Origin: Eunapius fragilis
Lineage: Eukaryota; Porifera; Demospongiae; Spongillida; Spongillidae
Direction: 5' to 3'
Assembly (NCBI GenBank): GCA_963681505.1
Contig: OY811990.1
Span: 5,386,708-5,450,707, forward strand
DNA: 64,000 nt
A program made the position numbers and the translations under genes. Numbering within the stretch: the stretch's first letter is position 1; each line of letters starts with the position of its first letter. The notes below the pieces were generated by a model. The model saw only the letters and a list, made by a program, of their open reading frames with translations. It was not told where the DNA came from and made no database searches. Shown piece by piece: positions 36,663-60,770 of this stretch.

Positions 36663-38379
36663 CACTCTGACATGGTGCCATGCCTGATTCCATTGCACCC
36701 TCCTAACTCCACTTATCACACTTTCCCTCCTTCACACCACCACCCAACTCACCCACCCTCTCCCTACACCTTCACCCCCACAGATGATGCAGTGCTCTCA
36801 GGATCAATGAGCTGGCAGACCATCCCATCTGTCTCCCTCACGGCTGCAAAGATCACACTCATCCTAACACTCTCATTGGACTATTACCCGACTGTGAGAG
36901 CCAACGGCACCCTCACCCTTCTGGGCTCCCTGGACTTTGGAGATCGCACTGGTGTACAGCAGGGTGTCTACACAATGCAGGTGGGCGTATGGTTAAGGTC
37001 CTTGCTGTGCAGGGAATGAGTGTTACAAGTAATAAAAAACAAAACATTCACTAGGAGAAAGTTGGTGGCATAGAGGATTGGAAGGTAATAGTGCTGTAAA
37101 CAAGGGTGGTATAATAGTCCTATATTTAGCACACACAACAAACAACTAATGTCCTCAGAGTGGTATATTGTAAGAGTTATTGCATATGATGATGATGATG
37201 ATCAATTGTAATAAAATGCACTGATCCCAATAATTGAGAACATGCTCAATAAATGTAATCTAACCAATCCCAATAAATTGCGTAGGCGTAGAAGGCGCGA
37301 AAGGGGTGGAGCTGGTGCAATCGTAATAATACATTACATCATAGCGACCGCCGCGTGGGTAAATGCAATATTTCTTAATTTGTTATTTTAGAAAATCAAT
37401 CCGATGCCGCCAAATTACAAATTATGCAGCTGTTAGTTTACTTTTGAGTGATGTGTCTAACTCCGTAGAAGGACTGAACGCCATTCGGCTCACTGGCTAT
37501 CTGCTGCATCAGTATGGGTGTAAAAACGCCGAAACGTAATAAGAGAAACTAAAACCTTTCCAGTGCTAGGTTAAGATGCAATGAGAGGGAAGTGGAGGGC
37601 GCGGACCGGAGTAGCACTCCTGTATTCCGCTCTATTTGCAAAAATGTATGGTATCTCGTTTCGCTGCTTCTATGCGCCCTCCCTTTGGGGACTCGACATG
37701 GTTCCTTCTCCGCGTGTAGACCCAACTCGCTCTCCTTGACAAGGACGTTGTCTTGTTACGTGTGTGAACTTTCCCCTCCATGTAGGTACTGACTGTCAAT
37801 CACGAAGATGGATATCTCGTTGCCATGTCAACCATAGTCCACACCTACTCCGACGACAACAATTATGGCGTCCCATGGCTGACGGTCTTTGAGTACTGCT
37901 GCAGAGGCACAGGTCTTTCCAACAATGCAGGCACCCGGTAAGCTTAAGGGACTGCTGGTGTGGTTTGGACCCCTAAATGCTGATCCATACTCCTCCCCCG
38001 TCCAGTCTCACCATCACAATCACAGTGGACTTCTCCCTCATGTCTTCCCTCCTGCTGCCCGCCATACCTGTGGTTCACCTCTCCTCTGGGAATGCTTCCC
38101 AGCAGTTCTTCTTCCCTGCCCTCACCTCCACTGGTCACCCTTTGGTCTACCTCACTGGCTCCTCTCTTGATTACCGCTCGTCCCAGGCAGGGACACCCCA
38201 GGTTGGTGTCTCAGTTGTGGTGTGCATTTATTAAGAGGTGTCATCGTTCCTTGTACAGGGACTGCAGATTGGGTACACCACGGGTTTGGTTACCTGGGAT
38301 ACCACCTATGTGTCCCCCGGTGACTATAGTGTGCAGGTGGTGGTGATGGATGCGTTCAACGGCCTGCGGGTAAGATTTC

Positions 38380-38431
<52 letters not shown>

Positions 38432-41400
38432 ATGTGTGTGCGCCTGTGCAGTCAGTGATATGCACATTCAATCTCACTTTCCTTGCACCATCACATCGTC
38501 TCCCCCTCACACCTCTCCACTCTTGTCTATTCAGGCAACCTCTGAGCTTCTCTTTCGAGTGTCTGCACCCACCAGTGGGAACTATCCACCTCTCCTTCTT
38601 GCCCCTTGGACCCCATTGCTGCCCCCAGATGTCCTCCATGTTACCCCAGGGTCTATGCTGACATATGACATCACAGTGTTTGATAGTGAGACCATTCTCA
38701 GCACCGTGGTAACCAGCCTCCTCCCACTTCCTGTGGGAGCATCTGTTGGTGGCCTACAGGGATACGTATCACAAAATGGTTAGTTATTTTAGGAGCACGG
38801 GCAGGGAGGAGGGTATAATATATTAACTGGGTACACGGAAGAGGTGGGTACGTGATGTGAAGAGGTGGATACATGATGTGAAGAGGTGGGTACGTGATGT
38901 GAAGAGGTGGGTACGTGATGTGAAGAGGGTATGTGATGTGAAGAGGTGGGTATGTGATGTGAAGAGGTGGATACATGATGTGAAGAGGTGGGTACATGAT
39001 GTGAAGAGGTGGGTACGTGATGTGAAGAGGTGGATACATGATGTGAAGAGGTGGGTACATGATGTGAAGAGGTGGGTACATGATGTGAAGAGGTGGGTAC
39101 GTGATGTGAAGAGGTGGATACATGATGTGAAGAGGTGGGTACGTGATGTGAAGAGGGTACGTGATGTGAAGTGGTGGGTACGTGATGTGAAGAGGTGGAT
39201 ACATGATGTGAAGAGGTGGGTACATGATGTGAAGAGGTGGGTACGTGATGTGAAGAGGTGGGTACGTGATGTGAAGAGGTGGGGCATGATGTGAAGAGGT
39301 GGGGCATGATGTGAAGAGGTGGGTACGTGATGTGAAGAGGTGGGTACGGGATGTGAAGAGGTGGGTACGTGATGTGAAGAGGTGGGGCATGATGTGAAGA
39401 GGTGGGTACGGGATGTGAAGAGGTGGGTACGTGATGTGAAGAGGTGGGTACGTGATGTGAAGAGGTGGGTACGTGATTTGAAGAGGTGGGTACGTGATGT
39501 GAAGATGTGGGTACGTGGTGTGAAGTGGTGGGTACGTGGTGTGAAGAGGTGGGTACGTGATGTGAAGATGTGGGTACGTGGTGTGAAGTGGTGGGTACGT
39601 GGTGTGAAGTGGTGGGTACGTGATGTGAAGAGGTGGGTACGTGATGTGAAGAGGTGGGTACGTGATGTGAAGAGGTGGGTACGTGATGTGAAGAGGTGGG
39701 TATGTGATGTGAAGAGGTGGGGCATGATGTGAAGAGGTGGGTACGTGATGTGAAGAGGTGGGTACGTGATGTGAAGAGGTGGGTACGTGATGTGAAGAGG
39801 TGGGTACGTGATGTGAAGAGGTGGGTACGTGATGTGAAGAGGTGGGTAGGTGATGTGAAGAGGTGGGTACGGGATGTGAAGAGGTGGGTACGTGATGTGA
39901 AGAGGTGGGGCATGATGTGAAGAGGTGGGTACGGGATGTGAAGAGGTGGGTACGTGATGTGAAGAGGTGGGTACGTGATGTGAAGAGGTGGGTACGTGAT
40001 TTGAAGAGGTGGGTACGTGATGTGAAGATGTGGGTACGTGGTGTGAAGTGGTGGGTACGTGGTGTGAAGAGGTGGGTACGTGATGTGAAGATGTGGGTAC
40101 GTGGTGTGAAGTGGTGGGTACGTGGTGTGAAGTGGTGGGTACGTGATGTGAAGAGGTGGGTACGTGATGTGAAGAGGTGGGTACGTGATGTGAAGAGGTG
40201 GGTACGTGATGTGAAGAGGTGGGTATGTGATGTGAAGAGGTGGGGCATGATGTGAAGAGGTGGGTACGTGATGTGAAGAGGTGGGTACGTGATGTGAAGA
40301 GGTGGGTACGTGATGTGAAGAGGTGGGTACGTGATGTGAAGAGGTGGGTACGTGATGTGAAGAGGTGGGTAGGTGATGTGAAGAGGTGGGTACATGATGT
40401 GAAGAGGGGGATACGTGATGTGAAGAGGTGGGTACATGATGTGAAGATGTGGGTACGTGGTGTGAAGAGGTGGGTACGTGATGTGAAGAGGTGGGTACGT
40501 GATGTGAAGAGGTGGGTACGTGATGTGAAGAGGTGGGTACGTGATGTGAAGAGGTAGGTACGTGATGTGAAGAGGTGGGTACGTGATGTGAAGAGGTGGG
40601 TACGTGGTGTGAAGAGGTGGGTATGTGGTGTGAAGATGTGGGTATGTGGTGTGAAGTGGTGGGTACGTGGTGTGAAGTGGTGGGTACGTGATGTGAAGAG
40701 GTGGGTACGTGATGTGAAGAGGTGGGTACATGATGTGAAGAGGTGGGTACGTGATGTGAAGAGGTGGGTACGTGATGTGAAGTGGTGGGTACGTGATGTG
40801 AAGAGGTGGGTACGTGATGTGAAGAGGTGGGTACGTGATGTGAAGAGGTGGGTACGTGCATGAGCAGGAGTGAATAGGGGGTGATTGAAATGTCGCTTGT
40901 TCTTTGGCAGCGATATCTCGACTGACCTGGAATGCAACCAGTGTGGATTCGTGCATCTTCTGCCTGGTTGCTAGGGACATGATGGGACTGCCCAGCCTCC
41001 CACTGTGTGTGCCTGTCATGGCGACCCAACGCTCCATCGTGGTGAGGATGGGGATGAGCACAAGGGAAAGGGATGAGTATGAGGGGAGGGGGGAGGGTGG
41101 GGGTGGAGATGAGGGAGGTGGTATTCCACTGTGAAATTTTCTCTGTCCTCTGCACAGCAACCAGTGTTGGATACCAATGGACCTCAGACGTCTGGGCCAG
41201 CCTTCGCCCAGACATTCACCAAAGGTCTGGACCAGCTTGTTCCTCTGGTCTCCGCTAATGCCACCTTAGTGTCCCCTGGCCCTGTTGAGCTGATGTGCGC
41301 CAGACTGTGCCAGTACCCAGATGCTGAAAACGAGGCCTTGACCGTTGACCCCACCTTCCAGCACCCAATCCTTCAGTACGTTTCCCTCTCCGCTCCTGGG

Positions 41401-44400
41401 TACCCGACCGCAGCCTGCTTTCAGGGGCGTGCCTCACCGGGCACATACCAGCAGGCCCTGCGCAGCCTCAGGTACGCCAACGCCAAGCCTTCCCCCACAC
41501 CTGGCCCACGGGCGGCCATTGTGGAGGTGTACTATGGTGGCACCACCAACGCAATATCTTCTGCGTACTCTGTGCTGAACGTCTCCATCCACAACCACCC
41601 CCCCACCGTCTCTGTCAGCGGCTCCCCAGATAGCTTCTACAACACCTTCTTCCCTCACTGGGGGCCCGTCCCCGCCATCAGCCCCTCTGGTGCCCAGGTC
41701 ATTGATGCCGACAGTGCGACTGTTGTCATGGCAACTGTGGCTATCCAGAATGCCTTAGATGGTGGTAGCAAGGAGTCTCTAGTGGTGAGCTACACCTCAC
41801 CAGAGCGGGTGAGCGTGCCGGTGGTGGAGCAGGCATTGGACCTCAACATCCCCGTGGGGCTGCTTTGGAACGGGGATGCTGCTCCCACCATCACCAGCAC
41901 CATCACCATAGCACAGGACGGGTACGTGGGCGACGTAGCCGTTGTGGTGGACATTCGCCATTCTAGGACTGGGGACTTGGCCCTCCAGTTGGAACACCTT
42001 GGCTATGTGGACCTACTGGTACTCAGTCCAGGGGGCCACACCTGCTCCCAAGACGACATGAGGGGTACTGTCTTCTCCACCAACACCTCCTCCAACGTTT
42101 TCCTATCCAGAGGATACCGGTCCCCAGGCCTTTGCAAGTTCATGTCTCAGGGTCTCTTCACTCCAGATGGGGACCTGTCTCGCTTCAGAGGTCTGGACAT
42201 AGCTGGTAACTGGACGCTGTCTGTCATAGACCAGGCCATCTCTGTCGACACCGGCCGTCTCGTGAGCTGGGCACTCGTAATACAGCCAAGAGAGGACCAC
42301 CTGGTGTGGGCGTGGCCTCCCGTGGTCCCCGCTTTGGCGGTTTACCCCGGGAAACGGTCGCCAGAGTACCACCAGCGGGACGTGGAGAGCGATGGTCGCC
42401 TCACTGACCTAGCCGTGCACGTCCACCTCTCTGTCCCCTTTGAGGCGGTGACCCTTTACGCTCCGACGCTCACCCTGGTGCACCCTGATGGCACCCAGGT
42501 GCTCCTCTTCAACGGCTCTGTCCCCCTGTGTGCCGTGGGGAACTACACATATGTCATCTTCAAGGACAACGCCTCGCTGGGCTGCGACTACGTGTGCTCC
42601 TCCTCTAATGGCTCTCAGTATGGCTCTGGGTCGGGAGCAGGTGTGTGTGAGGAGGGAGAGGAAGGACTGATCAAACCCGGTCTCGTTGATGTCATTGCAC
42701 CTGCCACGCCTCTCTCTGCGCTCAGGGGGAAGCTTGCCGGGGGTCGGTGGGTGCTGCGGGTGTCGCCTTCCTCGGTTGGTCCCTCCGACCTCCTGGGTTG
42801 GTCTATGCGGATGGCTCGAGAGCCCAACGTCTTTTCTACTTACGACGGGAGCTCGCAGCTGCTAACGATTGTTGGGGCGGACTCCGCCCTGAACTACCAG
42901 AGGGTGCTGCAGAGTGTGGTATACGATAACACTGCTCCCAGTATGAACTTCTCCACCCCTCGTCACATTGTCACCACTGTGTTCGACAGTGAGGCGCACT
43001 CCAATGCATCTCTGGCCTCCTCCTCTAGCTATGTCACTGTCCACCACATTGGTCTGACCCTTGACCCTGCCGCAGCAACGTGGGTTGAGTCGCTGACGCG
43101 CAACGTTTCATTCGTGCAAAACCAACCACCACTTCCGCTTTTCAGTTTCCAAATCCCTGTGCTCTCTGATGCAGTGTTCCTGCAGCGTAACTACACTCTC
43201 TACGCGACAGTGAAGGGTTGTGAGGACCTGGGTGTGGAGGGCCTCACCCTGAACGCCTCAGCCGTACCCACCATGCATGTGGTGAACTCCTCTGACGTCC
43301 TGGCTGGTGTCTATCGGCTTGTGGCCACCTCGAACAACCTAACCTCCATCGCTGATGTGCAGGCTCTGCTGAGAACACTCAAGTACTTCAACTATGCCGT
43401 GGTGTTCCATGGGGCGGGGAGAGAAGTTAACATCGTTGTCACGGATACGACCAATGGCAGCCTGTTTACCAGTGGTGTGGGTGTGGTCAACGTTGGGTTC
43501 GTCTACGTTGACCACCCTCCTGAGCTGATCCTTAACAACCACATAGCCCAGACGGACACCATGTCCAACGTCCTGGGCTACACTGAAGGAGACCCAGCTC
43601 TCCTCCTGGCCAATGTGACGGGGCTGGTGCTCATTGATGTCGACAACACCACGCTGGTGTCCATCACGGTGACCATCCTTGACCCAGCTGATGGCATGTA
43701 TGAGGTCCTGGCTGCCAACACCTCTGGCACTAACATCACCTCCACCTACAACACCAGCTCCTACACCCTCCTGCTCAGTGGGGTGGCTCCCCTAGACCAG
43801 TACCGGGCTGTGCTCACGACCGTATCATACGAAAACCTAAATGCTGACCCAGGTGACCCCAGCACCGTCCCGAGGCAGATCTCCTTCGTTCCATTTGATG
43901 GCATCCGTTACGGTAAGGCCTCCATCGCCTATGTGCTCTTCACTGCCATTAACAACGCACCATTTGGGGACCTGAATGGGCAGGCCACAGGCACTAACAC
44001 GTCTGCCCTCTACGTGGAGAGAGACCCTCCTGTCCCTCTGTGCCCCAACGCCGCCATCTTTGACGTGGACAACGCCACCTTGGCTTACATCAGCGTGCAG
44101 ATCCTCAACGTACGCGACAGGGCGCAGGAGGAGGTGCTCCGGAGCGGCCTGGGGCTGACGCACTTTGACCCCAGTGTGGGCCTCCTCACCATCAGGGGGC
44201 TCCCCACAGTGGAGGCATTCCGGGCCGCCCTGCGGAACGTGTCGTACGTCAACTATGCAGATGAGCCCAACACCTCCCCCAGGATCATACAGGTGCTAAT
44301 GAGTGACGGGCTGGAGATCAGCGAACCCCTGTACGTGACCGTTAACATCACCCTGGTGAACGACTCTCCCTACTTCAACTCCTCTGCTCCGCCCTTTGAG

Positions 44401-47400
44401 CCCGCCATGTTGGAGGACGAGTCCCTTACCTCCAACACGGGGTGGGCAGTGAGCGAGATGTCCTACCTGATACAGGACAGCGACGAGGGGGCAGTGAGGG
44501 GTGTGGCCATCGTGGGATACGACACCCAGTTAGGAACCCTCCAGTACACCCTCGACGGATCAAGCTGGTCCCCCGTGTCAACGGCGGTCTCCCTTAACCA
44601 CTCCCTCCTCCTCAGCGACGAGCCTGGCCGCGGGATCAGGTTCCTGCCAGTCATGTACTACAACGGACCTGTGAACATATCCCTCGTGGCTTGGGACCGC
44701 ACTGATGGGCTGGCCAGCGGGAACTACGCAGACGCACGCCACACCTCCAGCCAGTCCCCTTACAGCTCCCAGGTGCTGAGGATAACCCTGTTCGTCATCC
44801 CCGTCAACAACGCGCCCGTCCTCGAGGGGATTCCCCTCCAGCTGACCCCTATAAAGGAGGACAACATGACATCAGCTGGGGACCCGGTGACCAGCCTCCT
44901 GCTCCACGTCACTGACCCCGACCTACCCAGCGTCTTTGGGATAGCCGTGGTGGGGGCTGAGCAGATCAATGGGACGTGGCAGTACTCTACTGACGGTGGG
45001 AGGGTGTGGCATCCCTTTGGTGACGTGAAGCCATCCTCTGCCCTTGTACTCCAGGGAGTACCTGGTACTCTGGTTAGGTTCGTCCCTAAGATGTACTTCA
45101 CTGGGAACGCCTCGTTCCAGTTTAAAGCGTGGGACCTGACCACTTTTACTGAAGACTACGGTTCTGGTTTTGGACCTGGGTACGGGTTTTCCACCAATGG
45201 GACTAACTTTACCAATGGAAGCTCCTCCCAGTCTTACCCCTCTGGGACCTTAGTGGACACGCTCCTGTCTGATCCAGTCAACGGGCCGTTCAGTGTCAAC
45301 ACCACCAATGCCACCATATACGTGGTCCACGTCAACCACTCCCCCTTGGTGCTTGCGGGCATGTCCCTCAGCCCCATCCTGGAGGACACCCCCGCGGACA
45401 TGAACCACGGCACCACTGTGGCGGGGGTCATCAAGTGGGGGACTTACTACTACGACTTTGATGCCAGCTCAGCGTCCGGTCTGGCCGTGGTGGGCGTGGA
45501 CAATCGCTACGGCACCTGGCAATACAGCTGCGATGGAGGCGGTGGGGGTGGCGCGCTGAACTGGACCTCCTTCATAGGTGACCTGTACTACGGGTACCGT
45601 ATCCCGCCCCTCCCCACCCTCCAGAAGGCCACCCTCCTCCTCTCCTCCTGCTACATACGCTACCTCCCCTCCACCTACTTCAACACTCAGGTGGACCTCA
45701 ATGGTAACTCCCGGCCTCCTTTGGACACACCCTTCATCACCGTCCTCGGATGGGACGACACGGGCCTCACTGCGGGACGGTCTGGGACCTACGGGAACGA
45801 CGCCTCTTACTACGGGAGGTCCGGCTCTGTCGAGTTCAGCGCTTCAGTTGTGCCTGTGACCATCACCGTCATGTCAGTGGACAATGTGCCCATACTGCTG
45901 CTCAACGACAGCACTACACCAGACTACAGGACCACCTACTACGAAGACCGTGTCCCTGTGCCCGTAGTGGGGGGCGGAGTCACCTTGATTGACCACGACA
46001 ACGCCACACTGAAGGACCTCACCATCACCATACACTCCACCTTTGACCTTGCACCATTTTTGGGCGTTGCCCTTCCGAACACAACAGCTTCGTACGGTGC
46101 GGGTGTAACCTCCTCCCCAGTCTACCCTTCACTCCAGGCTATTGTTGACTACGTGAACAACCTCACATCTCCCACTCCACTCCAGCTGTACTGTGCAGGT
46201 CTGGCAGCCACAAGTGAGGTCATTTTGGTCACCACGGCTGGTACAGACCTCACCTCGCAGATAATCAGCTGGTGTCCCTTCTCTGTGCGCATTTACGGCA
46301 CCAACAACACAGTTGCACCCAAGGAGCAGTTCCAATATGTGCTCACCAAGGCACTCTTCAACAATAGCATTGATCCACCTACCCCAGGAGATCGTACGCT
46401 GACCTTTGTGGTATCTGATGGCCTGGGCCTGAGCATACCGGTCGTCACCACAGTGACGGTGGTATCTGTGAACGATGCCCCTGTCCTCGACCTCAACGAC
46501 AACGAACCCGACTTCAATAACCACGTCTTCTACGTGGAGGGAGAGGTGGAGCTGCCTCTGACCAACGAGACGGGACTGAGGCTAACGGACACAGACAACT
46601 CAAGCCTCCTGTATGGCCGCGTGGTGCTGCTGGACTACCCCGATGGGAACTATGAGTTCCTCGACGCTTCCACCCTGGGGACTAACATCTCTGCTCGCTA
46701 TGTGCTTGCAAACCACACCCTCTACTTGTACGGCAACGCCAGCTTGCAGGACTACGTGGACGTGTTAAGGACGGTGTCCTACACCAACACCTTTGCCAAC
46801 CCGGGCAACCCCTCCACCCTGCAGAGGAGGGTCCTGTTTGTGGTGAGCGACGGACTGGATGAGAGCGCCTCGGTGTACAGTTACGTCTCCTTCACCGCTG
46901 TCAACAACCAACCGTGGATGGACGTCAACGGCAACGCGTACGGTGCTGACAACAATGTCGTCTTCACCGAGGAGAGGGGTCCGGTGTCCATAGTTGATCC
47001 AGCCGGCTTTGTCATGGATATCGATAACACCACCGTCGCGTCCATGATAGTCCAGATCGTTAACCCCTATGACACCTTCTCGGAATACCTCCAAGTGGAT
47101 CCCATACTGGTCTACTACCAGCCGTACGTTAGCAATGGGCAGGTTGTCATGGCAACATCGGTGATCAACGTCACGAGCAACGTGTGGTACGACGCGGGTG
47201 CGGCAGCTCTGAGGATTAGCGGGCTACCCTCCCTGGAGCAGTACAACATGGTGCTGAGGTCAGTCAAGTACAACAACCTCAAGCACAAGGTTGACCTGAA
47301 GGGCCGGCGGGTGGTGTTTGTGTCCAACGATGGCCTCCTCAACAGTACCGCTGTGTACTCCAATGTCACCATGCAGCCGGTCAACCACGCCCCTTTCTTC

Positions 47401-50400
47401 ACCAGCTACCCTGTCATTACTCCGCTTATACTGGAGGACCAAACCAGTTCAGCTGGTGTCACAGTGTTTAACATCATTACAGGCTACGATGTTTACCCCT
47501 ACCCTGGCCTCATTGGGGACGATGACGATGTCAACTACGCGTCTGAGAAGGGCATAGCTATTGTCGGCGTCGACAACAGCCATGGTGTCTGGCAGTACAA
47601 GGTTGGAAACGGGGGCAGCTTTGTCCCCTTCCAACCAAACGTAACCCTGCACAGCGCCCTCTTGCTCAGGGGCACCCAGTTCACCCAAAACTACCTCCGC
47701 TTTGTCCCTAACCCTTACTTCAACGGCAACACCAGTATCACCTTCCTGGCCTGGGATACCTTCTACCCCTTACCTGACGGCACCACCAAGGACACAACCT
47801 CCCCTCCAGACCCCCAGAGTCCCTTCAGCACGGCCACACACACCATGTATATGGTGGTGGTCCCTGTGAACAACGCCCCCATTATCAACACCTCTGTGGT
47901 CCCTTCAATGACCCCCGTGTACGAGGGTACCAGCTCTCCCCCAGGAGACGACGTCTCTCTGTTCCTGACTGCCCTCCAGGGTGACCCAGACGTGAGCACA
48001 CTCAACCCTCAGGCCTTTGGCATAGCCGTAGTGGGCGCTGATACCACCAACGGTGTATGGCAGTACTCCACCAATGGGGGGAGGAACTGGACCACGATGA
48101 CTACGCCCACTAGCACCACTGCCACCGTGCTCACCAGCACCCCTCCACAGCAGCAACGGGTGAGGTTCGTGCCCCAGAGGTACTTCTTTGGTACGGCCTC
48201 CATCACCTACGTGGTGTGGGACAAGAACACCACGTTCCCCAGTGGGGGCGTGGTCAGCACCTCCCCCCCTAGTGGAGTGGACCCGACCACCTACACCTTC
48301 AGTGTGCAGTCCACCTCGGCAACCATCACCGTCCTCCACGTGAACAACGCCCCTGTGGTCTCGGGCAGCTCGCAGCTCTTCAGCATCACAGAGGATGTCT
48401 CCAACTCATTCAACGGGGGCCAGCAAGTGGGCGTGGTCATCTCAAGTGGGGGGGTCTTCTACTACGACGTTGACCCCGGCTCTGCCGTCGGCATTGCCGT
48501 CGTAGGTGTTGATCGTCGCTATGGCACCTGGCAGTACTCGTGTGCAAGCGGCGCTCAGAGGGTGTGGCTTCCATTTGTTGGGGGTTATGTGCTGGGAGTG
48601 GCCGCCCCCGCAGATCCCAGCGACCAGTACGCCACCCTCCTGGACTCGAACTGCTGGGTGCGCTTTGTACCCCAGGCCAACTTCAACTCCCAGTACGACA
48701 GCAGTGGAAACCACCGCCCCGCCTCCGACGCACCCTACATCAGGTTCAGAGGGTGGGACACCACTTACGGGATAGTGGGTCAGGTGGGCGTGAACACCTC
48801 CTACGATACCCTGTATAACTCTGGAGCGTTCAGCATGAACGTCAGCAATGCGTACATAACAGTGACCTCAGTGAATGACCTCCCTGTGCTGTGGGTGAGC
48901 GGCCAGTCCTCCAGCTACTCCACTGTGTACACCGAGCCCATCCCACTCCAGAGGGTGGTGAAACCTGTCTCCCTGGTCAACACAGCTAACTTCACCCTGA
49001 GTGACGTGGACAACGCCAGCCTAGCCAGGATTACTGTCTCCTTCACTCTGAGGGATGGGTCTGCCGAGGCCATCCTTGGTAGCACTCAGGGGACTTCCCT
49101 AAACATCACCACCACCGTCACGGGCACCTACTCACTCAGGATAGCCCCCCTGATGGGCTCTTCTGCCCCCCTCGGAGACTTCAGGACTGTCCTCCGCACC
49201 CTGCAGTACCAGAATACCGTCAAGAAACCCTCCACCGTCAACAGGGTCATCACCTTCCTGGTGAGTGATGGCCTGGGGACTTCATCGGCCGCCACAACAG
49301 TGGTAGTGTTGCAGGTGGCGAACCCACCAGAGTTGGACCTCAACGCCAGCATGAGTGACATATACAACGTCTACTACAAGCAGGGGGAGGGCCCTGCCTC
49401 CATTGTTGACCCCACAGCGACCCTGGTGGTGTACAATACCTACCTAGTCGTGAATGCGACGGTGCTGATCCTGTCTGCCCCCGATGGGAGCAGGGAGATA
49501 CTGTCTGCCAACACCACTGGCACCAACATCACTGCCACTTACAACGGCACCAGACTGGTCCTCACTGGGCCAGCCACCCCCTCGGATTTTAGAAACGTCA
49601 TCGCCACAGTGACGTACACGAACCTGTGCTGCACCAACGCCAACCAGCAGTCGTACAACCCACCAAGTTCCCAGACCCGCATGATCGAATTTGTGGTCAA
49701 CGACGGCATCAACTCGAGCGTCCCCGCTTATGTGTACCTGTACTTCACCCCATTGAACATCCCACCATTCCTGGACCTCAGCGGGAACATAACAGGGATC
49801 AGCTCTGTGGCCACCTTCTATGATGAGATGGGACCCATTCCTGTGGTGGCCCCAGACGCCATCTTGTACGACATTGACAACATCACCCTATCTTACATTA
49901 GGGTGACCATCCTTAACCCAGAGGACGGTGCATTTGAGACATTGTGGGTGGAGTCTGTCAGCGTGCCCTATCGCATAAGCCGTACTGTCATGGGTGTGGT
50001 AACCTACACGCCCACCCAGTCCTATAACACCTCCACCTCCACCCTCCTCATCACCGACCTGGACACTGTCCCCCAGTATGAGCTCGTCCTGAGGACACTG
50101 AAGTACAACAACCTGGCTAACCTGCCCAACAATGCTACGAGGATCTTGTCTGTGGCAGTGTCTGATGGACTGCTGGAGACTGTCGTGAATGCTTCCATCG
50201 TGGTGGTACTTTTCAATGATGCCCCGTATTTCAATGCGTCGGCCGTATTGTACCAGCCTGTGGTGGCTGAGAACACTCCCACCACCATCAATGTGGGCTG
50301 GTCTATAGAGGACCTCATGTCAGGCCTTCTCCTGCTGGATGACAACGAGGGTGACGGCCGAGGTATTGGCATTGTGGGTCTGGACACCCGTAATGGCCAA

Positions 50401-53400
50401 TGGGAGTACACAACAAACTTCATTGCTGTCACTAACACCTCCACCATCACCAACACCTCCATCACAAACACCTCTGCTACCACTAACACATCCACCATCA
50501 CTAACACTACCACTATGGATCCTGACTATGGCAGTGGCAATGACACGTGGTCTGGAAGTGGTATGTACGAGGAGCAGCCTTCTTCGCTACCTGCGCAAAG
50601 CAGCTCACAAAATAGTACCACCAGCTCACAAAATGGTACCACCAGCTCACAAAATGGTACCACCAGCCCACAAAATGGTACCACCAGCTCACAAAATGGT
50701 ACCACCAGCCCACAGAATGGAACAGGCAGTACAACATTGTGTTCTAAATATTCCCCACCAGTAATTCCTGGTGATCCTCCATCGTCCTTCCGTGCTGATT
50801 GGCACCGCCTCTCTTCTGATACAAGCATCGCCATGGCAACCTTATTGAAAGTGAATGGTTCATTCACACGCCTGAGGTTCTTGCCAAACAAGTACTTCAC
50901 TGGTGCAGCGTTGTTCACCTTTGTAGCCTGGGATGGCACGGATGGCCGCCAGAGTGGCTCCATTGCAAACGCTACATATGTTACCCAGGTGGGGCCATTC
51001 AGTGCCAGGACTGCATCATTGAATGTGACGGTCTCTCACGTGAACAATGCCCCATTCCTCTCCAACACCACCATCACACTGTCCCCAGTGCTTGAGAACC
51101 AGGTTAACCCCCTTGGTGACATGGTGGTCTCCATGGTGACACCCATCAGCGATGTTGATGTGGGTAGTCAGTTTGGTGTAGCCATCATCCAAGTGGACAG
51201 CTCCAATGGTACCTGGCAGTTCAGCACAGATGGAGGACATAGCTGGGTCACATTGACCAACGTCTGCCCACAAAACGCTACCCTGCTCAGGTCCTACCCT
51301 ATTGCAATGAACAAGGTGAGGTTTGTTCCCAACAAGTACTTCTTCGGGAACGTGTCCCTCTGGTTCCTGGCCTGGGACCTGACATCAGGTGAGGCTACGG
51401 GTACTCAGTCCATAGATGTCACAGTGGCTGACCCCCTCCACGGAGCCTTCAGTACCTCCCAGACCTCTGCCACTGTACCCGTCATCCATGTTAACAATGC
51501 TCCCATGTTGGCACCAGGAGCCAAGCTCCTCCCTATATTGGAGGACACACCCACCTCTAATAACAATGGGACAGCAGTGGCAGATATCGTGACTGGAGTT
51601 TACATTGATGTGGATCCTGGATCTGAAGTGGGTGTGGCAGTGGTGGGCGTGGACCTGAGGTATGGGGTGTGGCAGTGGTGGTGTCCCCAGTCCAAAACAT
51701 GGCAGACGTTTGTGGGGGACATCTACTATGGTGTGGTGGTACCCAAGGACCCCTTGGTACAGAAGGCCACCCTCCTCGCTGGAGACTGTCGCATACGATT
51801 CCTGCCCGTATGGAACTTCAACACACTCAAGGACACCAGGGGATTTTACAGACCTGCCTCTGATGTCCCTTACATCACTATTCTTGGCTGGGACAACACT
51901 GGGGTTACAAGGGGGAAGTCTGGCAGGTATGGGATTGATGCTTCTTACTACAACCTTAGCGACACTGATGAGTTCAGTGGAGTCATTGGGACTGCCACCA
52001 TTGAGGTCATATCTGTGGATGACCCTACTGCTGTCAGGATATCGGGCAGTGGTAGTGGGACATACCTCAGTGTGGACTACCTACAGCTGAGTCCCTATGT
52101 GCGGATCGTACAGCCCCAGTTTGTTTCACTTACTGACACTGACAATGCTTACCTTGTGTCCATAACTGTGCTGGTACTTAACCCCAAAGATATAGGTGCT
52201 GAATCCATTGGACTTCTCAATTCTTCTGCCGTCACTTTGGTTAATGATACGCTGGCTATCGTCACTGTTAACCATACACAGGAAAAGATCCTACTGGACC
52301 GATACGTCTACGTCAATGACAGTGGTGAACCGTACTCGTACCTCCACATGTACTCAGATGATGCCAATAATGTGACTATTGAAGCCTTCCAGGCACTCCT
52401 GATGCAGGTGGTGTATGGTGACATTGCCGTGGAGATAGATAACAGTACGCGCTATGTCACCATTGAGGTGGATGATGGTACCATTGTGACAACAGTTCAG
52501 ACTGAGGTTCATATTGTGTTGTTTGATGCCTACGACCCTGTTATTAGCAACTCCTTGACGTCATTCAACTTCACAGAGGATAGCTCTTCTCCTGTCTCCC
52601 TGGTCTCCCCAAGCCTCACCCTCTCTGATCTGGACAACAATGTCTACTTCCTGATGGGCAATGCCACCATCTCCCTTACCCCAATACCTGCCTCCTCTGA
52701 TGAGAATGTCTCAGTGGATATCAGCTCCTATCCATCCCTCACACAGAGATATGACCCCATCACAGGTGTCCTGGTGGTATCAGGTGCCGCCCCAGTGTCC
52801 ACATACCAGTCCATTCTCAGGTCTGCACAGTACCACAATACCGCAGATGAACCAGAGCCTGGTCCCAGGACAGCCTCTATCGGGGTGACTGACCTTGGAG
52901 GGCGGGCCAGTAATGTGGTTAAGGTGGTGGTGATTGTGATAGTCATCAACAATGACCCACCTGAGGTGACCACACCCAATGTCACCTTTATCTACATTCA
53001 AGGCCAGCCCCCTGTCCCCATATCACATGGAGTGGTCCTAAGCGATGCAGACAGTATGTTCTTCCAGGAAGTGAGCCTTACATTGACCATCACAAATGCC
53101 TTCAATGGGTCTGAGGAGGTACTTAATGTTGTCCCAGTGGGGAATGTTAGTGTCACTTACGTCAATGATACCCTGTTGCTACTCGGACCAGCTTGGCTGG
53201 AGGATTTCCAGAAGACAATAGCTTCTCTAACGTATGTGAACTTGGCAGAGCTGCCAGACCCTCGTACCAGGCACATATCTGTGGTGTTGTTTGATGGGGT
53301 GTACCAAAGCAGTCCTCCTGATCAGTACATTCTAGTGGACATCCAGCGAGTGAACTACCCTCCAGAGGTGAACCTCCACGGCCCTGTTGCCTTCATGTAT

Positions 53401-56400
53401 GACATCATCATCAACTATGTGGAGGGGGAGGGGCCTGTTCCCCTTGCCCCCAATGCCACCATTGTTGACAAGGACAACACAACTCTAGTCCGTCTGGTGG
53501 CCAGACTGCTCAACCTGTATGACCAGCCTCTTGAGGTCCTAAGTGTTTTTGGAGACCATCCTAACATCATTGTCAGCTATGACAACATGACAGGGATCCT
53601 TGACCTTAGCGGAGTAGCTCCCATAGCAGATTACGTGCAGCTCCTCAGAAACCTTAGCTATGATAACCTGAACTATGACCCAGGCGACCCCAACACTACG
53701 ATGAGGGTGGTGGAGATTGAGGTGTTTGATGGCGTGAACAGCAGTGTGCCTCGTGATGCCTTCATCACCTTCCACTCAGTGAATGACCCTCCCTTCTTTG
53801 ACCTGAATGGGCCGGGCAATGGAACAGACTTCACCACAGTGTTTGTGGAGGATGGACCAGCGATATGGGTCACCTCTCCCTACATGACCCTCTTTGATGT
53901 TGACAACTCCACGCTGGCCTATGTGAAAGTTAGCATAGTGAACCCAATGGATCCTGGGGAACAACTGATACCTCCTTTCACCAATAACACCACTCTGTAT
54001 CCTAATGGCAGCTTGTTGGTCTACGGCCTTGCAACCACCATGGATTTTAGAAACTATATGGCGGGTATAAAGTATATTAATCCAGCATATGTGTTAAAGA
54101 ACAATGAAACACGTCTCATCTCCTTTGTGGGTAGTGATAATGGCTTTGTAGAGGGTAACACTTTCTACACCAGGGTGCTCATTTCACGTGTCAACCACAT
54201 CCCTGTGCTGATTATATCTGGCCTAGTCCCCAGCCCTCTTCCCATCACCACGCCCACTTCAAGCTCCTCCTACTCAACTGGCTCCTCCCACTCTAGTACT
54301 ATGAGCACTTCCTCTGTGGTCTCATCTACTCCCTTCCCCACCCCCTCTGCCACACCTCTAGATGGGTCTGGTTCTGGAACTTATGGGTCAGGTTCCGGAT
54401 CCTATGGGTCAGGGTCAGGTTTTGATGCCGAGAATGTTTCCACCTCTGTTGGACCCACCTCTGGACCCACCTCTGGACCTACCTCTGGACCTACCTCTGG
54501 ACCCACCTCTGGACCTACCTCTGGACCTACCTCTGGACCCACCTCTGGACCTACCTCTGGACCTACCTCTGGACCCACCTCTGGACCTACTTCTGGACCC
54601 ACCTCAGTACCTACCTCTGGACCAGTTTATAATGACACCTTTGTTCCTGGCCCCACCTACATAACCTCTTACTATGAAGATGCCACACCCATCCCAATTG
54701 TAGACCGTAACAGTGTCTACATCAGTGATCCAGATGTGTATGATGAATATCTCCACCAGCTGGAGGTAGTGATGGAGGGGGCTGTGGACACCACTTCTGA
54801 AGGCATCTTTCTGGATGGACCAGCAATCCTTGATGATGCAGTATTTGTAATGATGTCTACGTCACCATGGTTCTCACCAACGGGAAGGTGCAGTGATGTA
54901 ACATTCCCTGCCAACACTTCTGTTCTACTCTCCTTTTCAGCCATGCTCACTCCTTCAGCATGGAAGGATGTTGTGAGATCATTGAGGTACTGCAATCGTG
55001 ACAAGAACATGACTAGTGGGAACAGGACTGTCTCCTTCAGAATACTGGACCACCCAGGAGGCAACTGGAGCAAACCTGTGTACACCATCATCAGAGGGTT
55101 CAGTGTGAACAATCCTCCAATATACAGTCCTCCTGCTAACTACTCTGAACTGTTCACTATTAAAGAAGACCACAATTTGACCTTTGATGCCCTGCAGTAC
55201 TTCTTTGACTATGAGGAATTTCTCACTGGTGCTGCCATCATGTCAGGTACTTTACCTGATGTGGGCAAGATCAGTATAGACACCACCACTGGTAACATCA
55301 CCTACTACTCTGCCCTCCATGACTTTGGCACCAGAACATTCTCTTATCATGCATGTGACTCCCATGGGGACTGCTCTGAGGACGTGATCATCACTGTTAA
55401 TATTACATTTGTCAACTACCCACCCTTCCCCATACGTCCATTGGAGGCGGAGACACTGGAGGACACGCCCATCATCATCAACGTCTCGTACTACTTTGAT
55501 GATGTGCAGGTCCCTCCATGGGTAGTGGCTGTGGAGGCCAGTGAGGGTGACTGGCACTTTGTGGACCGATCGGTGCAGAACCGTCACTTCTTTGTTTACT
55601 ACAAGCCTCCCTTATACCAGTATGGCGACTTCTTTGTTAACATGAGTGTGTGCGATAATAATGTTTGTGTTCCCTATGTCATTGTTGTCATGGTGACACG
55701 AGTGAACTACCCACCCTCCATTGATGTGGACCATCTCTACACTATCCAGGGAGGACAGGTCTTAGACATCACCTTCAAAACTAGTGATGTGGAGTCTCGC
55801 AGATGGAATCCAGTCCTGCTGCAGTATGCCAACGTCACACATGGATCAGCAATGTTAAGCCCTGTATCTGATGATGTAATAAACAATGTTCTGGTTCAGG
55901 TATGGAGGCTGGTCTACACACCTGATGCCTACTACAATGGTTCTGCCTCTCTTGTTCTAGTGGCCACAGACTATGAGAATTCCACCTCTGTGGTCATGGT
56001 GAACATTTTTATCAACTATGTCAACTTCCCACCCTCATTTGGTACAACCAACCTTACAGTGTTCGAGGACACACCCTTTATGGTGACCCTACCTCAGGGG
56101 TTAAATATAACAGACCCCAATGACCCTGTGTATTCTGACCTCTTCTCCATAGAGCGGGGGACAACTATCGGGAACATATCATACTCAGGAGGTGTCCTGA
56201 GGTACACGCCCCCACTTCATTACTTCTCTCCCACACCCTGTCAGCCCATCACCTTTGTCATGAAGGCCTGTGATAACAACAGTGTGGATGTCCCCAAGTG
56301 CCAGACAGCTACCATCTACATCTGTGTGCTGTTCCTCAACCACCCACCACAGTTCTCCCCAGCTGTGATGTACGTTCTGGAGGACCAGACAACCTTCACG

Positions 56401-59400
56401 TCTCTGAACATCTCAGCAGCTCTCTCTGATGTTGAAGATGGCACACCACCACTCAACGGTACACACATCCTCACTGACCCCGCCCATGGTAAGGCCTACT
56501 ACAACAACATCACAGGTAATGTCACGTACAGACCAGACCCTGCCTATTATGGCGTAGACCTCATCTATGTACGGGCATGTGACACCCTCAATGGCTGCAC
56601 GGTGGGTAACATCACTGTAGTTGTGCAGAACGTGAACCGCCCACCATCAGTTCTCAACTTCACCCACTACTCCAATGAAGACGACTTTGATCTGATTGGT
56701 CTCTACAACTATGTCAGTGATGGGGAGACACCTCACGACAACATCCTGGGTACCCTTCTCTTCAGCATAGTGAACACCACCTCTGGGGCCTACAGCAGTC
56801 TGGGCACCACCTCAATGGGAGGAGCTCTACGTGTGTACAACACCCATGGGATCACCACCTATGCCCCCCCAAGTGGTTATGTGGGGGTGGACACCTTCAC
56901 CTTCTCTGTGTGTGACCCCTGTGACCCCACATGGGCAGCAGAGTTGGGACGACCCCTTTCCCTCAACTGTACCCTGCAGCAGCAGAGGGTGGAGCCTACC
57001 TCTAGAAGGATAGCTTGTAGTGTTGCCATGGTGACCATATATGTGATAGGTGTTGACCATCTGCCCACACTTCAGACCCTGTCAGCCATCATATCCTTTG
57101 GAGAGAGCTATACCTTCAGACCGTTTGATGACTCAGCAGTTCCTGATCTGACCAGTCCTGGTGTGTACTGGTATCGTAACCAGAGTGCAGCCATCTTTGA
57201 TCGTGATGATCTACAGGGCTATGAGGCTAAGCAGAAAAAAATGAACTTAACCCTTTTCAACCTCCACAATGTCTCTGACATAGATGAACACTCTCTCACC
57301 CTCACATCCCTCCCCACGTACGGCATAGCACAGGTCACAGCTGAAGGTCCATATGGTCGTGGAACAATCACGTACAAACCTTTCTCTACTTTCTCTGGCT
57401 ATGAACATTTTAGTTACCGTGTGTGTGGACTGGCTCATGGCAGTGCCTTGGCCAAGTGTTCAGAGGCCAGTGTACAAGTGTTTGTGTCCAAACCAGCACC
57501 AAGCATCATAGAAGTGACTGCCACACCTGGTGGTGCTAGTGACGCAAAGATATCCAGAGGTGACACCATCTCAGTATCCTTTGATGAGGCCACCAACATG
57601 CCTCCTTTCAACACCACTTCCTACACCCTTAACACCTCTGAGGTGGACATGGTGTTTGACTTTGCCCTGCCTTTCATCAACACCACATTGGTGACAGATG
57701 CCTACTCGGGCATCTGGCTTAGCCCAGTAAAGTTTCTACTAACAATTAACGACGAGGGTTATCCTCAGCCATTTTCAAGTGTTTCAAAGATAGAGACAGC
57801 CGTTGGGGTGTGGACAGTGTCCGTTGATCAGAGCAGAGGTCCATGTAGCAGGATATCTAACCAGTACATTGATCCTTACTGTCTCCTCACTGCAGATGCC
57901 ACCTCCCTACAGGCCAACTCAACCTCCCCAGTTCTCACGGGCAGCTTTGGTAAGACACTGCCAAACGTGACAGTGATTGTGGTTCGAAATGACCTGGTGG
58001 AGAGTGAGGTGCTTCTGGACAACCCAGGTGTCCTTCTCTTCCAGGGTACACGTCTCGTGCTACTCCTGCAACCAGCTCTGTCTTACTTCCAACTATACCA
58101 GCTATGCAATGAACAAACTGAACAGGTACTTGCATTTGGGAATGGTGTACAGCTGGATATTGAAGGCTGTTCCAACTACCTAGCCAATGGGACAGACGCC
58201 AATGAGCTGTACGCATACCAGATTGGGGTCATGACCTCTGGTTCTGCCAAGACTGGTAAGGGCACGGCAGCTACACTAACATCTAGGTATGAAGAGCCTG
58301 TGACGTCCGAAATGGTATTCAGGATTAGTGTTCTTACAGACCCAACACCCAGTGATACAAGCGCTCTGTCCTCCGCAGTGAAAGATGGCGGCTTCAATGT
58401 GGAAACACTTGCAAACATTGTCTCAAGGACTACAGGTGTGCGCCAGGAATCAACACCCCTGACTGGTCTGATCGAAGTGCTGGTGGAGGGTGATGATTCC
58501 ATCACACCCCAAATCATTGGGGTCTTGGCAGGCAATCCCCCGGGAGACTCTACTTATGGTAAAGGGGACACAGTAACTATATACTTTGACTCATTAACAA
58601 ACAAGCCACCTGTGTCAACCAAGGCTGACCTGGACAAGATCCTTACCTTCACTCCATCACTTGGGAAAGATTATATGGGGGTGTGGCTTTCAGATGGGAG
58701 CTCCCTACAGATCACAGTGGTTGACCCATCACGCCCATCTGCTGATACCCTTACCCCAACCGGCACTAACTGCGTCCTCACCTTCAATCCAAACTATGAT
58801 TCTGTTCAAAGGCCAATCTCCGCCTACCTAGGGTCATCTCCATCACGATGTGTGGGGACACACCTCTGTGATGCATCTGGTATATCCGTTGGCGTCTGCT
58901 CTCAGAATAAGCTATCCTGCAGGGTTAACCAGAGTGTGTTTGGCTTTGGTGGGTCCTTTGATAGCATCACCAACCCCGTATCAGGAAGCTCTGTGACCTC
59001 TCTGCCCAGCTATGGTGCAGTGCTCCTAGCCATCTTCTGTGTGGTGGTCATTGCCATCATCCTGGTGGTGGTGTTCTACTGTTATCGCCAGTACAAGCTC
59101 AAGAACCAGAGGAAAGAAGCACTTCGTGTTGTCCAGAGATGGAAGAAGGACACCTATGCCCCTGGGAAGGCAGTTAAGAAGGATGATGGAGATTCCAAGG
59201 TTTGGTCTAAGCCACCTGATACCCATGCCATGAGGACTGTGATAGACCCATTTGTAGAGGAACCAAAGACCATTAGGTCTGGGGACTCAGCTGGTATCCG
59301 ACCAGCGACCGCTGCTCCAGATGTAGAACACCTTCCTCCATTGCCTCAGCAACGTTTATTCTTGCCACGTTCCCAACCTCGCATTCCCACAGTGTTACCA

Positions 59401-60563
59401 GACCTCCATTCCATACCAGATCAGATGCCTCGTACAAGGACAGTTCCTCAACCCCCACCTGCTGCACTGGTAAGGAAGTGGGTAGCTCTGTTGTGTGCTA
59501 TGACCATACATATTTCCCTTTTCCCCCACAGGGTCCTTCTACCATTCCCAATTCTGAAGCCGTCCCCAAAGCTGTTGCTATCTCAGACCCTCGCACCAGT
59601 CTTAAACCTCTGAAGGATCCCAAGATAAATGTTCTGGCCATGAGGGCTCTCCAGGGTGCACAGGCTGATCCAACTGCTCCCTTACCAAAGACCCAGTCAT
59701 CCATCTTAAAGCCCACCAGACTAGAACCACTGCACATGGAGGCCAAGCTACCTCCACTACTAGCCCCACCAGAAGCATTGTGGAACAGGGAGAAGGGGAA
59801 GGGACCTAGTGGAGGGAAGCAGGCACCAAAGAAGACACCTCCAGCAACCTCTTCTGAAGATGACTCGGTCTCCCGAGCAAGTTCAGAGGAGATGGAGAAC
59901 AAGGAACCAATGCCTTCTCAATCTTCCAAGCCCACCTCTACGGCACCCCTCCCTCCTATTGGGAGCCTCCCCCCTCCCCCCATAGGGACTGCCATACAAG
60001 CTCCCCTAGTGCAACACCAACCATCAGGTACATCTCTACCCACTCCTGTGCAACCACCTTTCATGCCTGTCAGGAAACCAATGGTGGACCCATTTGCTGA
60101 TTCTACATCTGAAAAGCCACCTCCCTCTACAAGGATGCCAACCACTTCCCCTCCAACCAGTCCTCTGAGAGTGACCTTCTCTCCAACGGCGCTACCATCA
60201 CCTCCAATGAGCCCCACCTCCCCTCCCGTGAGCCCCCTCAGGCCAGCATTCTCTGCAATGCCAGTGTTCCCTCCAACAAGGCCCCTTGCACGTCCAGTCC
60301 TACCAGTACGAACAGGCATGCCCACTCCTGCCATAGGCCCTGGTATGCCCGTTCCATTGGTACGCCCAGCCCTTCCCATCACCATTCGTCCAGGCATGGG
60401 AGCAGTGCGTCCATTAGGGGGTGGAATGCCTTTCCCGCCAATACGCCCGGGAGTGCGCCCCTCAGGCCCAGGCCTACCTCAGCCGGTTCCACGTCCAAGT
60501 GTCCCTGAATCAGTAGGACCAGCTGCAGGCACTGGGAAGGCTGATGGACCTACAGCTCAATAA
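35539..60563 (+). CDS. giant single-pass membrane protein with cadherin-like, Calx-beta-like and P-domain repeats (7,049 aa)
   Basis: Twelve exons: 35539-35626, 35751-35898, 35960-36153, 36251-36595, 36784-36980, 37786-37937, 38006-38201, 38259-38369, 38535-38778, 40911-41041, 41158-59469 and 59532-60563. They sum to 21,150 nt with matching phases. Residues 1-29 are a signal peptide. Two Calx-beta-like repeats follow (exons 2-5; each ends in an Asp-rich box such as ADDDR). Then come Ig-like segments (to ~790), two P-domain-like modules (~830-1160), about 22 cadherin-like repeats (~1380-4960), a stalk (~4970-5095), one more repeat, seven tandem-95-like repeats (~5250-6040) and a doubled C-terminal module (GDTISVSF, GDTVTIYF; ~6045-6550). 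A TM helix lies at ~6553 and a Pro-rich tail follows. NxS/T sites are dense. No furin, EGF, laminin-G or catenin-binding region was seen, so it is not a classical cadherin. A cell-surface adhesion or matrix receptor is inferred. Confidence 0.9.
36597..36660. repeat. (TG)n at the 5' splice site of intron 4
   Basis: About 30 TG units beginning within a few bases of the GT donor at 36596. Confidence 0.95.
38382..38430. repeat. (TG)n near the 5' splice site of intron 8
   Basis: About 22 TG units starting roughly 12 nt after the GTAAGA donor at 38370. Confidence 0.95.
38838..40862. repeat. 21-bp minisatellite filling intron 9 of the giant gene
   Basis: About 96 units of GAGGTGGGTACGTGATGTGA plus A, with variants (ATACATG, GATGTGGG, GTGGTGTG, and a shortened GGGGCATG unit). 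It occupies nearly all of the 2,132-bp intron (38779-40910). A higher-order duplication is visible: about 490 bp from 39382 recurs at 39905, a shift of 523 bp. Unit length is a multiple of three without stops, giving spurious ORFs of up to 820 codons. Confidence 0.97.
41840..42835 (+). other. two P-domain-like modules within the giant protein
   Basis: The first (41840-42285) reads ITIAQDGYVGDVAVVVDIRH, then SRTGDLALQLEHLGYVDLLV, DDMRGTVF, and FRGLDIAGNWTLSVIDQA before VSWALVIQP. This is the P-domain pattern of proprotein convertases (HxxxGDL...L.SP.G, then F.G....G.W.L...D). The second (42370-42835) is more diverged: LTDLAVHVHLSV, LTLVHPDGTQVLL, then LAGGRWVLRVSPSS and LLGWSMRM. No subtilisin-type catalytic domain is next to them. 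Confidence 0.7.
43500..54235 (+). repeat. cadherin-like repeat array, types A and B, inside the giant exon
   Basis: Two module types alternate. Type A (about 13) has DVDNATL..., an LxGxAP-like turn, YRxVLRTVxYxN and R-I-FVVSDG. Type B (nine) has IAVVGVDNRYGTWQYS, a DGG-W, LLL, RFVP-YFNG and AWD-T. Type B modules come in threes, starting near 44367, 44814 and 45340; 47390, 47875 and 48350; and 50222, 51050 and 51500. Type A modules lie before, between and after the triplets. Acidic DxD positions at module junctions suggest calcium binding. Both module types resemble domains common in very large bacterial surface proteins. Confidence 0.85.
50595..50722 (+). repeat. Ser/Thr/Asn-rich insertion with repeated NGT sequons
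   Basis: Inside a type B module, a low-complexity insert carries six near-identical 7-residue units (SSQNGTT or SPQNGTT). Each has an Asn-X-Thr glycosylation site. Just upstream are an SGSG and several TNTS repeats (50430-50560). The unit is 21 bp at the DNA level and recent. Confidence 0.9.
54245..54640 (+). repeat. mucin/proteoglycan-like stalk (SGSG and GPTS repeats)
   Basis: A Ser/Thr/Pro-rich segment, then four DGSGSG or YGSGSG motifs of the kind used for glycosaminoglycan attachment (54362-54421), then about 14 tandem GPTS units encoded by a 12-bp repeat of GGACCCACCTCT (54450-54625). It separates the main repeat array from the membrane-proximal modules. Confidence 0.9.
59012..59085 (+). 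other. transmembrane helix of the giant protein
   Basis: About 24 hydrophobic residues (AVLLAIFCVVVIAIILVVVF) followed by the basic stop-transfer sequence YRQYKLKNQRKEAL. This gives a type I orientation with the repeats outside. Confidence 0.95.
59086..60560 (+). other. proline-rich cytoplasmic tail of the giant protein
   Basis: About 470 residues split by a 62-bp intron (59470-59531). Many PxxP and polyproline stretches occur (LPPLPQQ, PPLPPIGSLPPPPIG, SPPMSPTSPPVSPL), and RPALPITIRPGMG-type repeats lie near the end. Such sequences bind SH3, WW or EVH1 domains. No catenin- or integrin-type motif was seen. Confidence 0.8.
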
Positions 60564-60770
60564 CATACTACCACATCAGTACACACATTAGTGATGACGT
60601 AGAGGACTGTTGAGAAAAACTTAGAAATCTATGTTGTGTGTTATGGTCACTTCTGTGTGGTGTACTTTATGGTGTTGATGATAATTAAATATTAATAACT
60701 GGATGATGAAGGAATATCATGTAGAAAAAGTGAAAGTGAGTTACCACTGCTGTTTCCACGTAGCCCCCTA
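60564..60770 (+). promoter_or_regulatory. 3' UTR with ATTAAA poly(A) signal
   Basis: ATTAAA at 60684-60689 lies about 120 bp after the stop codon and is the likely poly(A) signal. If it is skipped, AATAAA motifs at 63584-63593 on the far side of the satellite could serve instead, which would place the satellite in the 3' UTR. Confidence 0.5.

Follow-up and report, generated by a model that had tools for sequence, protein, structure and literature searches.

A 64,000-nucleotide stretch of the genome of the sponge Eunapius fragilis (assembly GCA_963681505.1, contig OY811990.1, positions 5,386,708 to 5,450,707 of the forward strand; hereafter the window) contains a gene that probably encodes a type I transmembrane (TM) adhesion receptor of about 7,000 amino acids (aa), belonging to an old and apparently undescribed family that has its modules in common with giant proteins of bacteria. 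The preliminary description of this DNA had suggested an undescribed class of adhesion receptors, and this proposal holds in that no description of the family was found in the open-licence literature searched, with most subscription journals lying outside that search.

The gene model, predicted from genomic sequence alone with the exons joined by script, comprises 12 exons (35539-60563 on the forward (+) strand, as for all features below). Its introns are bounded by GT-AG in 11 of 11 cases, its frame is continuous, and it yields a protein of 7,049 aa that is composed, in order, of a signal peptide, a Sib-type N-terminal domain, a He_PIG domain, an array of A and B modules, tandem-95 domains, D repeats, a TM helix and a proline-rich tail, with 169 N-glycosylation sequons across its whole length. 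Exon 1 (35539-35626) is defined by an ATG, a hydrophobic N-terminus and a GT donor, the signal peptide being judged by eye. Exons 2-10 (35751-41041; individually 35751-35898, 35960-36153, 36251-36595, 36784-36980, 37786-37937, 38006-38201, 38259-38369, 38535-38778 and 40911-41041) have AG/GT borders and keep the frame, and all five homologs covering this region (P0008, P0013, P0030, P0031, P0055) show 22-38% identity to it in global alignments, with 74-99% of residues aligned. Exon 11 (41158-59469), which lies in a single open frame called at 41113-59613 (6,166 aa), spans 18,312 nucleotides and encodes 6,104 aa without an intron. A single TM helix (59014-59091, hydropathy 3.42 at residue 6555) lies towards its end, and exon 12 (59532-60563) completes, in the exon model, a cytoplasmic tail with 21.5% proline up to the stop codon. 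The exon model, the hydropathy profile and the tail composition thus bear out the spliced gene with signal peptide, TM helix, proline-rich tail and long intron-free exon that had initially been described. Two minisatellites accompany the gene: intron 9 consists mostly of a 21-bp unit in about 97 copies (38838-40858), and a 34-bp unit in about 82 copies (60755-63547) begins about 190 bases past the stop codon.

The repeats of exon 11 are not a product of chance, since leave-one-out profiles recovered each of the ten held-out canonical A modules at 70.5-131.8 bits and each of the eight held-out B modules at 82.0-129.4 bits, far above the maximum of 11.2 bits reached with 200 shuffles per module. 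The canonical A modules lie within 43507-50205 and 52945-54189, the canonical B modules within 44356-48870 and 51040-52041. DxDN/S motifs, present in nine of the ten A modules, suggest calcium sites. Both repeat types of the preliminary description are therefore real and its interval, 43500-54235, fits the canonical modules (43507-54189), but the modules are arranged in blocks rather than in strict alternation and the repeat region as a whole is larger, reaching from 41155 to 58833. The block order is A-A, B-B-B, (A)-A-A, B-B-B, A-A-A, (B)-B-B, (A)-(A)-A-A-A and one more degenerate A, with brackets denoting degenerate or split copies.

As placed by profile matches, degenerate A modules open exon 11 (from 41155). 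The canonical array starts with A modules 1-2 (43507-44355) and B modules 1-3 (44356-45876), followed by a degenerate A module with an insert (45877-46467; two partial matches of 29.3 and 25.0 bits), A modules 3-4 (46468-47379), B modules 4-6 (47380-48870) and A modules 5-7 (48871-50205). A further B module is split by an in-frame low-complexity insert rich in Ser, Thr and Asn (50212-51039; half matches of 44.1 and 44.5 bits), within which a 21-bp tandem repeat was called (50601-50720). B modules 7-8 (51040-52041), two degenerate A modules (52015-52944; 37.1 and 56.5 bits) and A modules 8-10 (52945-54189) complete the array. Beyond it lie an in-frame, mucin-like GPTS linker (54450-54623; 12-bp repeat, 14.5 copies) and seven domains of the tandem-95 or Big_9 type (55105-57492), the last of them weak (12.1 bits). 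This region matches tand_rpt_95 with 97.6 bits (cut-off 90), Big_9 with 62.7 bits and Cadherin_5 with 55.8 bits. Two D repeats (57493-57813 and 58501-58833), detected with a profile built from these two copies, have no Pfam match; repeats of this kind recur before the TM segment in the family, including P0129 and the deuterostome members introduced below.

Evidence for an old family comes from the distribution of this architecture. A query spanning residues 800-4200 of the open frame that holds exon 11 returned 44 proteins, 30 of which (P0002-P0031) have the module order in common, with 31-71% identity in the best local alignments; four of these are truncated (P0007, P0009, P0028, P0029) and the array of P0031 is shorter. 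Further Branchiostoma proteins and one protein of Ptychodera flava (P0055) were found with a Branchiostoma query, and a third search, started from the divergent P0030, added P0129, a EukProt entry marked as complete, apparently from a de novo transcriptome and perhaps of choanoflagellate origin, which has the same order, TM segment and tail motif. The family thus delimited comprises P0002-P0031, P0046-P0056, P0128 and P0129, and the window protein shows its order of A/B blocks, tandem-95 domains, D repeats and TM segment. A hydrophobic segment follows the D repeats in 40 of the 42 members examined, the remaining two open reading frames (ORFs) stopping before it. The best-kept regions of the ectodomain are two of the three B blocks, with 48-54% identity versus 42-49% for the A blocks (P0003, P0008, P0013); the B block at residues 2677-3173 is not better kept than A in these proteins. 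For the relative P0128, a VWA domain is listed, as in Sib proteins, and its tail is without the motif.

The long exon appears to be shared as well. Of 34 homologous ORFs, 27 have their start at a position corresponding to residues 592-661 of the window protein, in which exon 11 begins at residue 603, and 22 have their end at residues 6634-6718, exon 11 ending at 6706. We infer that these 27 are unspliced genomic frames, because the ends of the ORFs run into unrelated residues. The others include three full-length sequences, probably transcripts (P0008, P0013, P0030), together with truncated ORFs and some whose end alignments are ambiguous. Other giant frames with A modules are present in the searched genome (219 Mb, 24 contigs), namely at L140-L141 (G000:C19:331501-351500) and L025 (C15). 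The frame on C19 is 69% identical to P0035 over 6,522 aa, so that the genome holds further giant proteins with A modules. A silicatein-type pattern, used as a demosponge marker, gave no match in this genome (0 forward, 0 reverse, 1 in the forward control) and carries no weight either way, and one hedgehog-signal match (30.1 bits, cut-off 22.1) is compatible with an animal or a close relative, though as slight evidence.

At the sequence level, both module types have relatives in giant proteins of bacteria. When bacterial and archaeal genomes were scanned with the B alignment, 160 of 183 pattern matches encoded a relative, and the best 80 of these, corresponding to 78 loci, were kept. They derive from Pseudomonadota, Cyanobacteriota, Planctomycetota, Chloroflexota, Myxococcota, Nitrospirota and other phyla. 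The profiles recovered modules, B included, in 77 of the 78 loci (81 ORFs). In the scan, bacterial B modules were up to 46% identical to a query of three B modules, over part of its length. A and B modules occur together in 31 of the 81 ORFs, a rate biased by the choice of loci through B, and nine ORFs, for example from Zoogloea and Magnetococcales, contain runs of both. The likeness to bacterial adhesins noted at the outset is therefore real. Outside the family, B matches are few in the other eukaryote-like giant proteins examined (P0063, 93.2 bits; P0130, 69.5 bits; P0035, 56.5 bits; below 30 bits in P0042, P0043 and P0045), and A modules also occur in giant proteins of the cadherin type.

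The B-module tree (B tree), a quick LG+G4 analysis that is unrooted and carries a long-branch warning for WIN_B7 and P0021_B1, included 12 family proteins and, on the bacterial side, the best module each of the bacterial ORFs and of P0037, P0038, P0041 and P0057, which were taken as bacterial (at least 60 bits and at least 110 aa). The third B modules of the triplets form one group of 34 rows (SH-like approximate likelihood ratio test, 99) with contributions from all 12 family proteins, including the deuterostomes and P0030. Moreover, a single branch with a support of 84 separates the 91 family rows from the 84 bacterial rows. A second B tree, calculated under a mixture model with six family proteins and 30 of the 84 bacterial rows drawn at random, places WIN_B3 in an all-family set of 16 rows (support 98; rows of the set not printed). 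Its free search needs two changes, but a tree with the bacteria held together has the higher likelihood (approximately unbiased test, p-AU 0.682). The A tree draws on eight family proteins, on six proteins of the cadherin type with their four best modules each, and on the top-scoring module per bacterial ORF. It requires 13 changes for the family, seven for bacteria and 14 for the cadherin-type rows and leaves the grouping unresolved. In both the A and the B tree, modules of closer homologs pair position by position.

In some form, and in one direction or the other, modules were probably exchanged in ancient times between bacteria and early eukaryotes. A specific version, which we consider possible though short of probable, has an A-B block crossing between an early animal relative and bacteria well before the sponge lineage existed, followed by its fusion to a head of the Sib type and to a TM tail and by amplification in threes. 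The bacterial ORFs with runs of both modules (nine of 81), the scarcity of B matches in the eukaryote-like giants examined outside the family and the apparently intron-free exon of the homologous ORFs agree with this scenario. Its direction is nevertheless left undecided by unrooted trees, a B-tree midpoint root that falls among family rows and the unresolved A modules, and the A modules of giant cadherin-type proteins make an older shared pool possible. More tentatively, one may speculate about a pre-animal receptor class: an early holozoan would have captured, a single time, an AAA-BBB block of bacterial giant-adhesin modules, to which a Sib-type head and a tail with a new docking motif were added. 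The array would then have been frozen as an intron-free exon of 18 kb, and the receptor retained by filter feeders, amphioxus and acorn worms among them, as a very long tether for adhesion or capture.

The two ends of the protein provide hints at its function. Sib proteins of Dictyostelium have a role in phagocytosis. In the window protein, the SIBA-E_N domain (PF24907; residues 265-382) is spliced across exons 5-7 (36801-38027) and scores 37.1 bits, above the curated cut-off of 28.1; it is also listed for P0008, P0013, P0031 and P0046. A search of the whole genome with PF24907 gave no match, as did 14 control genomes, so that no absence is shown, and the domain in the window is itself split over exons. 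A putative Ig domain follows in exons 7-8 (38142-38360; residues 421-474), its He_PIG (PF05345) match reaching 28.6 bits (cut-off 24). At the start of exon 11, a region related to the P domain of proprotein convertases (41932-42741; P_proprotein, 28.9 bits, cut-off 21) is inserted into a degenerate A module (41587-43047, with A halves at 41587-41862 and 42739-43047). P domains are nested in an A module in the same manner in 35 of 43 homologs; among the homologs printed, P0030, P0055 and P0129 do not have this order. Pfam scans, which covered exons 1-10 and 41158-59200, detected neither a peptidase S8 domain beside the P domain nor a lectin or other named ligand-binding domain. According to PMC12686525, Dictyostelium Sib proteins function in adhesion and SibA couples to talin. 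The Sib-type head of the window protein points to adhesion as well.

At the opposite end, the cytoplasmic segment WSKPPDTHAMRTVIDPF (59203-59253) follows the pattern W..PP...MR..DPF, which is found in 31 of 44 family members (the window protein and 30 of 43 homologs) and in none of 87 other proteins. DPF, which we take to be a ligand of the AP-2 appendage, occurs twice in the tail of the window protein and five times in that of P0030. We favour a long tether for adhesion that would be linked to adaptors of the endocytic or cytoskeletal kind. The roughly 40 putative beta-sandwich domains could form a calcium-stiffened rod of about 150 nm (at about 4 nm per domain) that would keep a head for ligand binding at a great distance from the membrane and attach the cell to another cell, the matrix or a particle, while the tail may recruit endocytic or cytoskeletal adaptors. 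It is rather unlikely that the protein acts mainly as an endocytic or recognition receptor for particles, bacteria or self/non-self ligands instead of as a structural tether. The conserved DPF-containing motif, the phagocytic role of Sib proteins and their involvement in adhesion in Dictyostelium would suit such a receptor, but a lectin or other named ligand-binding domain is missing from the scanned parts and the tail motif is missing from all seven deuterostome members.

Base composition bears on the idea, raised at the outset, that exon 11 might be foreign. The GC content of third codon positions (GC3) is 0.603 in exons 1-10, rises to about 0.70 at the border between exons 10 and 11, and is 0.732 and 0.542 in the first and second half of exon 11. 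The CpG observed/expected ratio is 0.61 in exons 1-10, 0.60 and then 0.29 in the two halves of exon 11, and 0.26 in exon 12. Codon usage correlates at 0.67 across the exon 10/11 border versus 0.71 between the halves of exon 11, and composition changes most at around 50 kb, within exon 11. Although GC3 rises at the border, the proposed codon comparison thus does not single out exon 11, and we dropped the case for a foreign exon based on it, as CpG is similar across the border and the larger shift occurs within the exon. It is very improbable that the array was gained laterally in the sponge lineage from a bacterium or symbiont and spliced onto a host receptor, as the preliminary description had envisaged: bacterial A and B modules exist (B with up to 46% identity, A and B together in 31 of 81 ORFs), exon 11 is intron-free and GC3 increases at its start, but a recent transfer is already contradicted by the module order of 30 of 44 homologs, amphioxus and acorn worm and is further disfavoured by B modules that form position classes across the family, by the matching start of the long exon in 27 of 34 homologous ORFs, by the largest composition change falling within exon 11, and by the placement of family and bacterial B modules on opposite sides of a branch (84), with a p-AU of 0.682 for the tree holding bacteria together.

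Across the window, CpG observed/expected is 0.50-0.67 at 34001-50000, an interval that opens shortly upstream of the gene, and 0.15-0.33 beyond, a pattern that would fit a lack of germ-line methylation in the first half of the gene. Pieces of exon 11 are scattered elsewhere in the genome: 46 loci outside the window, some of them overlapping, match its DNA with shuffled exon 11 fragments of 95% median identity, some with in-frame stops (L003-L020, L022, L023, L028, L030, L031, L033-L049, L052, L054-L057, L061). They lie mainly at 3.58-3.82 Mb and 5.49-5.91 Mb of C20 and also on C7 and C1. In 19 of the 46, window position 53575 is joined to position 56177 by the same junction, with 66-71 bp in between, as if a composite pseudogene unit had recently been amplified, and pieces of the 34-bp minisatellite unit adjoin some of these shards (L041, L046, L048, L049).

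Several observations weigh against the favoured reading of an old family of adhesion receptors. Most homologs are database entries without an organism label, and we do not call them sponge proteins. The head is less conserved than the array, because P0129 and P0055 have no Sib or P domain in Pfam and the Sib match of P0031 falls slightly below the cut-off (27.7 versus 28.1 bits). Some modules of P0030 pair with each other (B4/B7, A4/A7, A5/A8) instead of with those at matching positions in other proteins, so part of its array was amplified or homogenised separately, and P0031_B2 and P0055_B2 stand outside the other B classes in the B tree. Searches of solved structures with the module profiles returned nothing significant (best E values of 0.04 and 0.16), and we infer calcium binding and adhesion from domain type. 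The lack of the tail motif in all seven deuterostome members counts here too, and NPxY occurs in none of the six tails examined, which renders a coupling to talin via NPxY unlikely.

Collectively, our findings name a testable receptor family of unusual size, with members in amphioxus and acorn worm and many further homologs, that combines Sib-type, P-domain and bacterial-type modules and has a conserved tail motif. Receptors of this kind are relevant to the way in which animals built their adhesion machinery out of components that bacteria also have, and to when and in which direction these modules passed between domains of life. The giant exon, seemingly retained throughout, poses a puzzle for the evolution of gene structure.

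Known systems resemble this receptor in part. Calsyntenins contain two cadherin repeats and an LG domain, neither of which was detected in the scanned parts of the window protein; part of the C-terminal calsyntenin region nevertheless resembles the A module, the first copy of which exceeds the cut-off of CLSTN_C (PF19699; 29.7 bits versus 27), over 89 residues that correspond to profile positions 133-218 of 354, and the Ptychodera protein matches the same profile with 49.2 bits. We rejected a true cadherin, given the lack of a match to the cadherin repeat PF00028 in the scanned parts, where the cadherin-like PF17892 and Big_9 (PF17963) exceed their cut-offs. FRAS/FREM was rejected as well: these parts contain no CSPG repeat (PF16184) at E values up to 1 and no Calx-beta match (PF03160), two N-terminal stretches looking Calx-beta-like by eye only. 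The outcome that the preliminary description had named as refuting, a widespread metazoan family such as FRAS/FREM without bacterial affinity, is half borne out: chordates and hemichordates have members of the family, which nevertheless differs from FRAS/FREM and retains its bacterial affinity. PMC6030884 presents lefftyrins, coherins, hedglings and TMEM132 as early holozoan adhesion proteins, including a bacterial-type (cohesin) domain, and terms the first three cadherin families; in our view, all four set a precedent for adhesion proteins of early holozoans that contain domains of the bacterial type. Membership in the first three was rejected, as their cadherin, cohesin, Hh-N and PTP domains have no counterpart in the scanned parts, and TMEM132_C matches only weakly (E 0.16). 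With the integrin-beta-like Sib proteins of Dictyostelium, the window protein has in common SIBA-E_N and the form of a single-pass membrane receptor, but it has no VWA match in the scanned parts and no NPxY in its tail. Bacterial giant tandem-95 and cadherin-like proteins, represented by ORFs from Zoogloea, Magnetococcales, Pseudomonas, cyanobacteria and Planctomycetota, share its A and B modules and, like it, the tandem-95 profile. Genes of this group are expected to lack introns, unlike the 12-exon model of the window, and their B modules fall on the other side of the B tree. Many of the bacterial loci were cut. Also among the closest known proteins are the uncharacterised ones of amphioxus and acorn worm (Branchiostoma LOC144902533, Hypp5455 and C3ZRA8; Ptychodera flava P0055). 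Listed with 3,688-4,660 aa, some of them partial, and with fewer A-B blocks, they display the same succession of A/B blocks, tandem-95 domains, D repeats and TM segment, and P0031 retains the nested P-domain order of the window protein.

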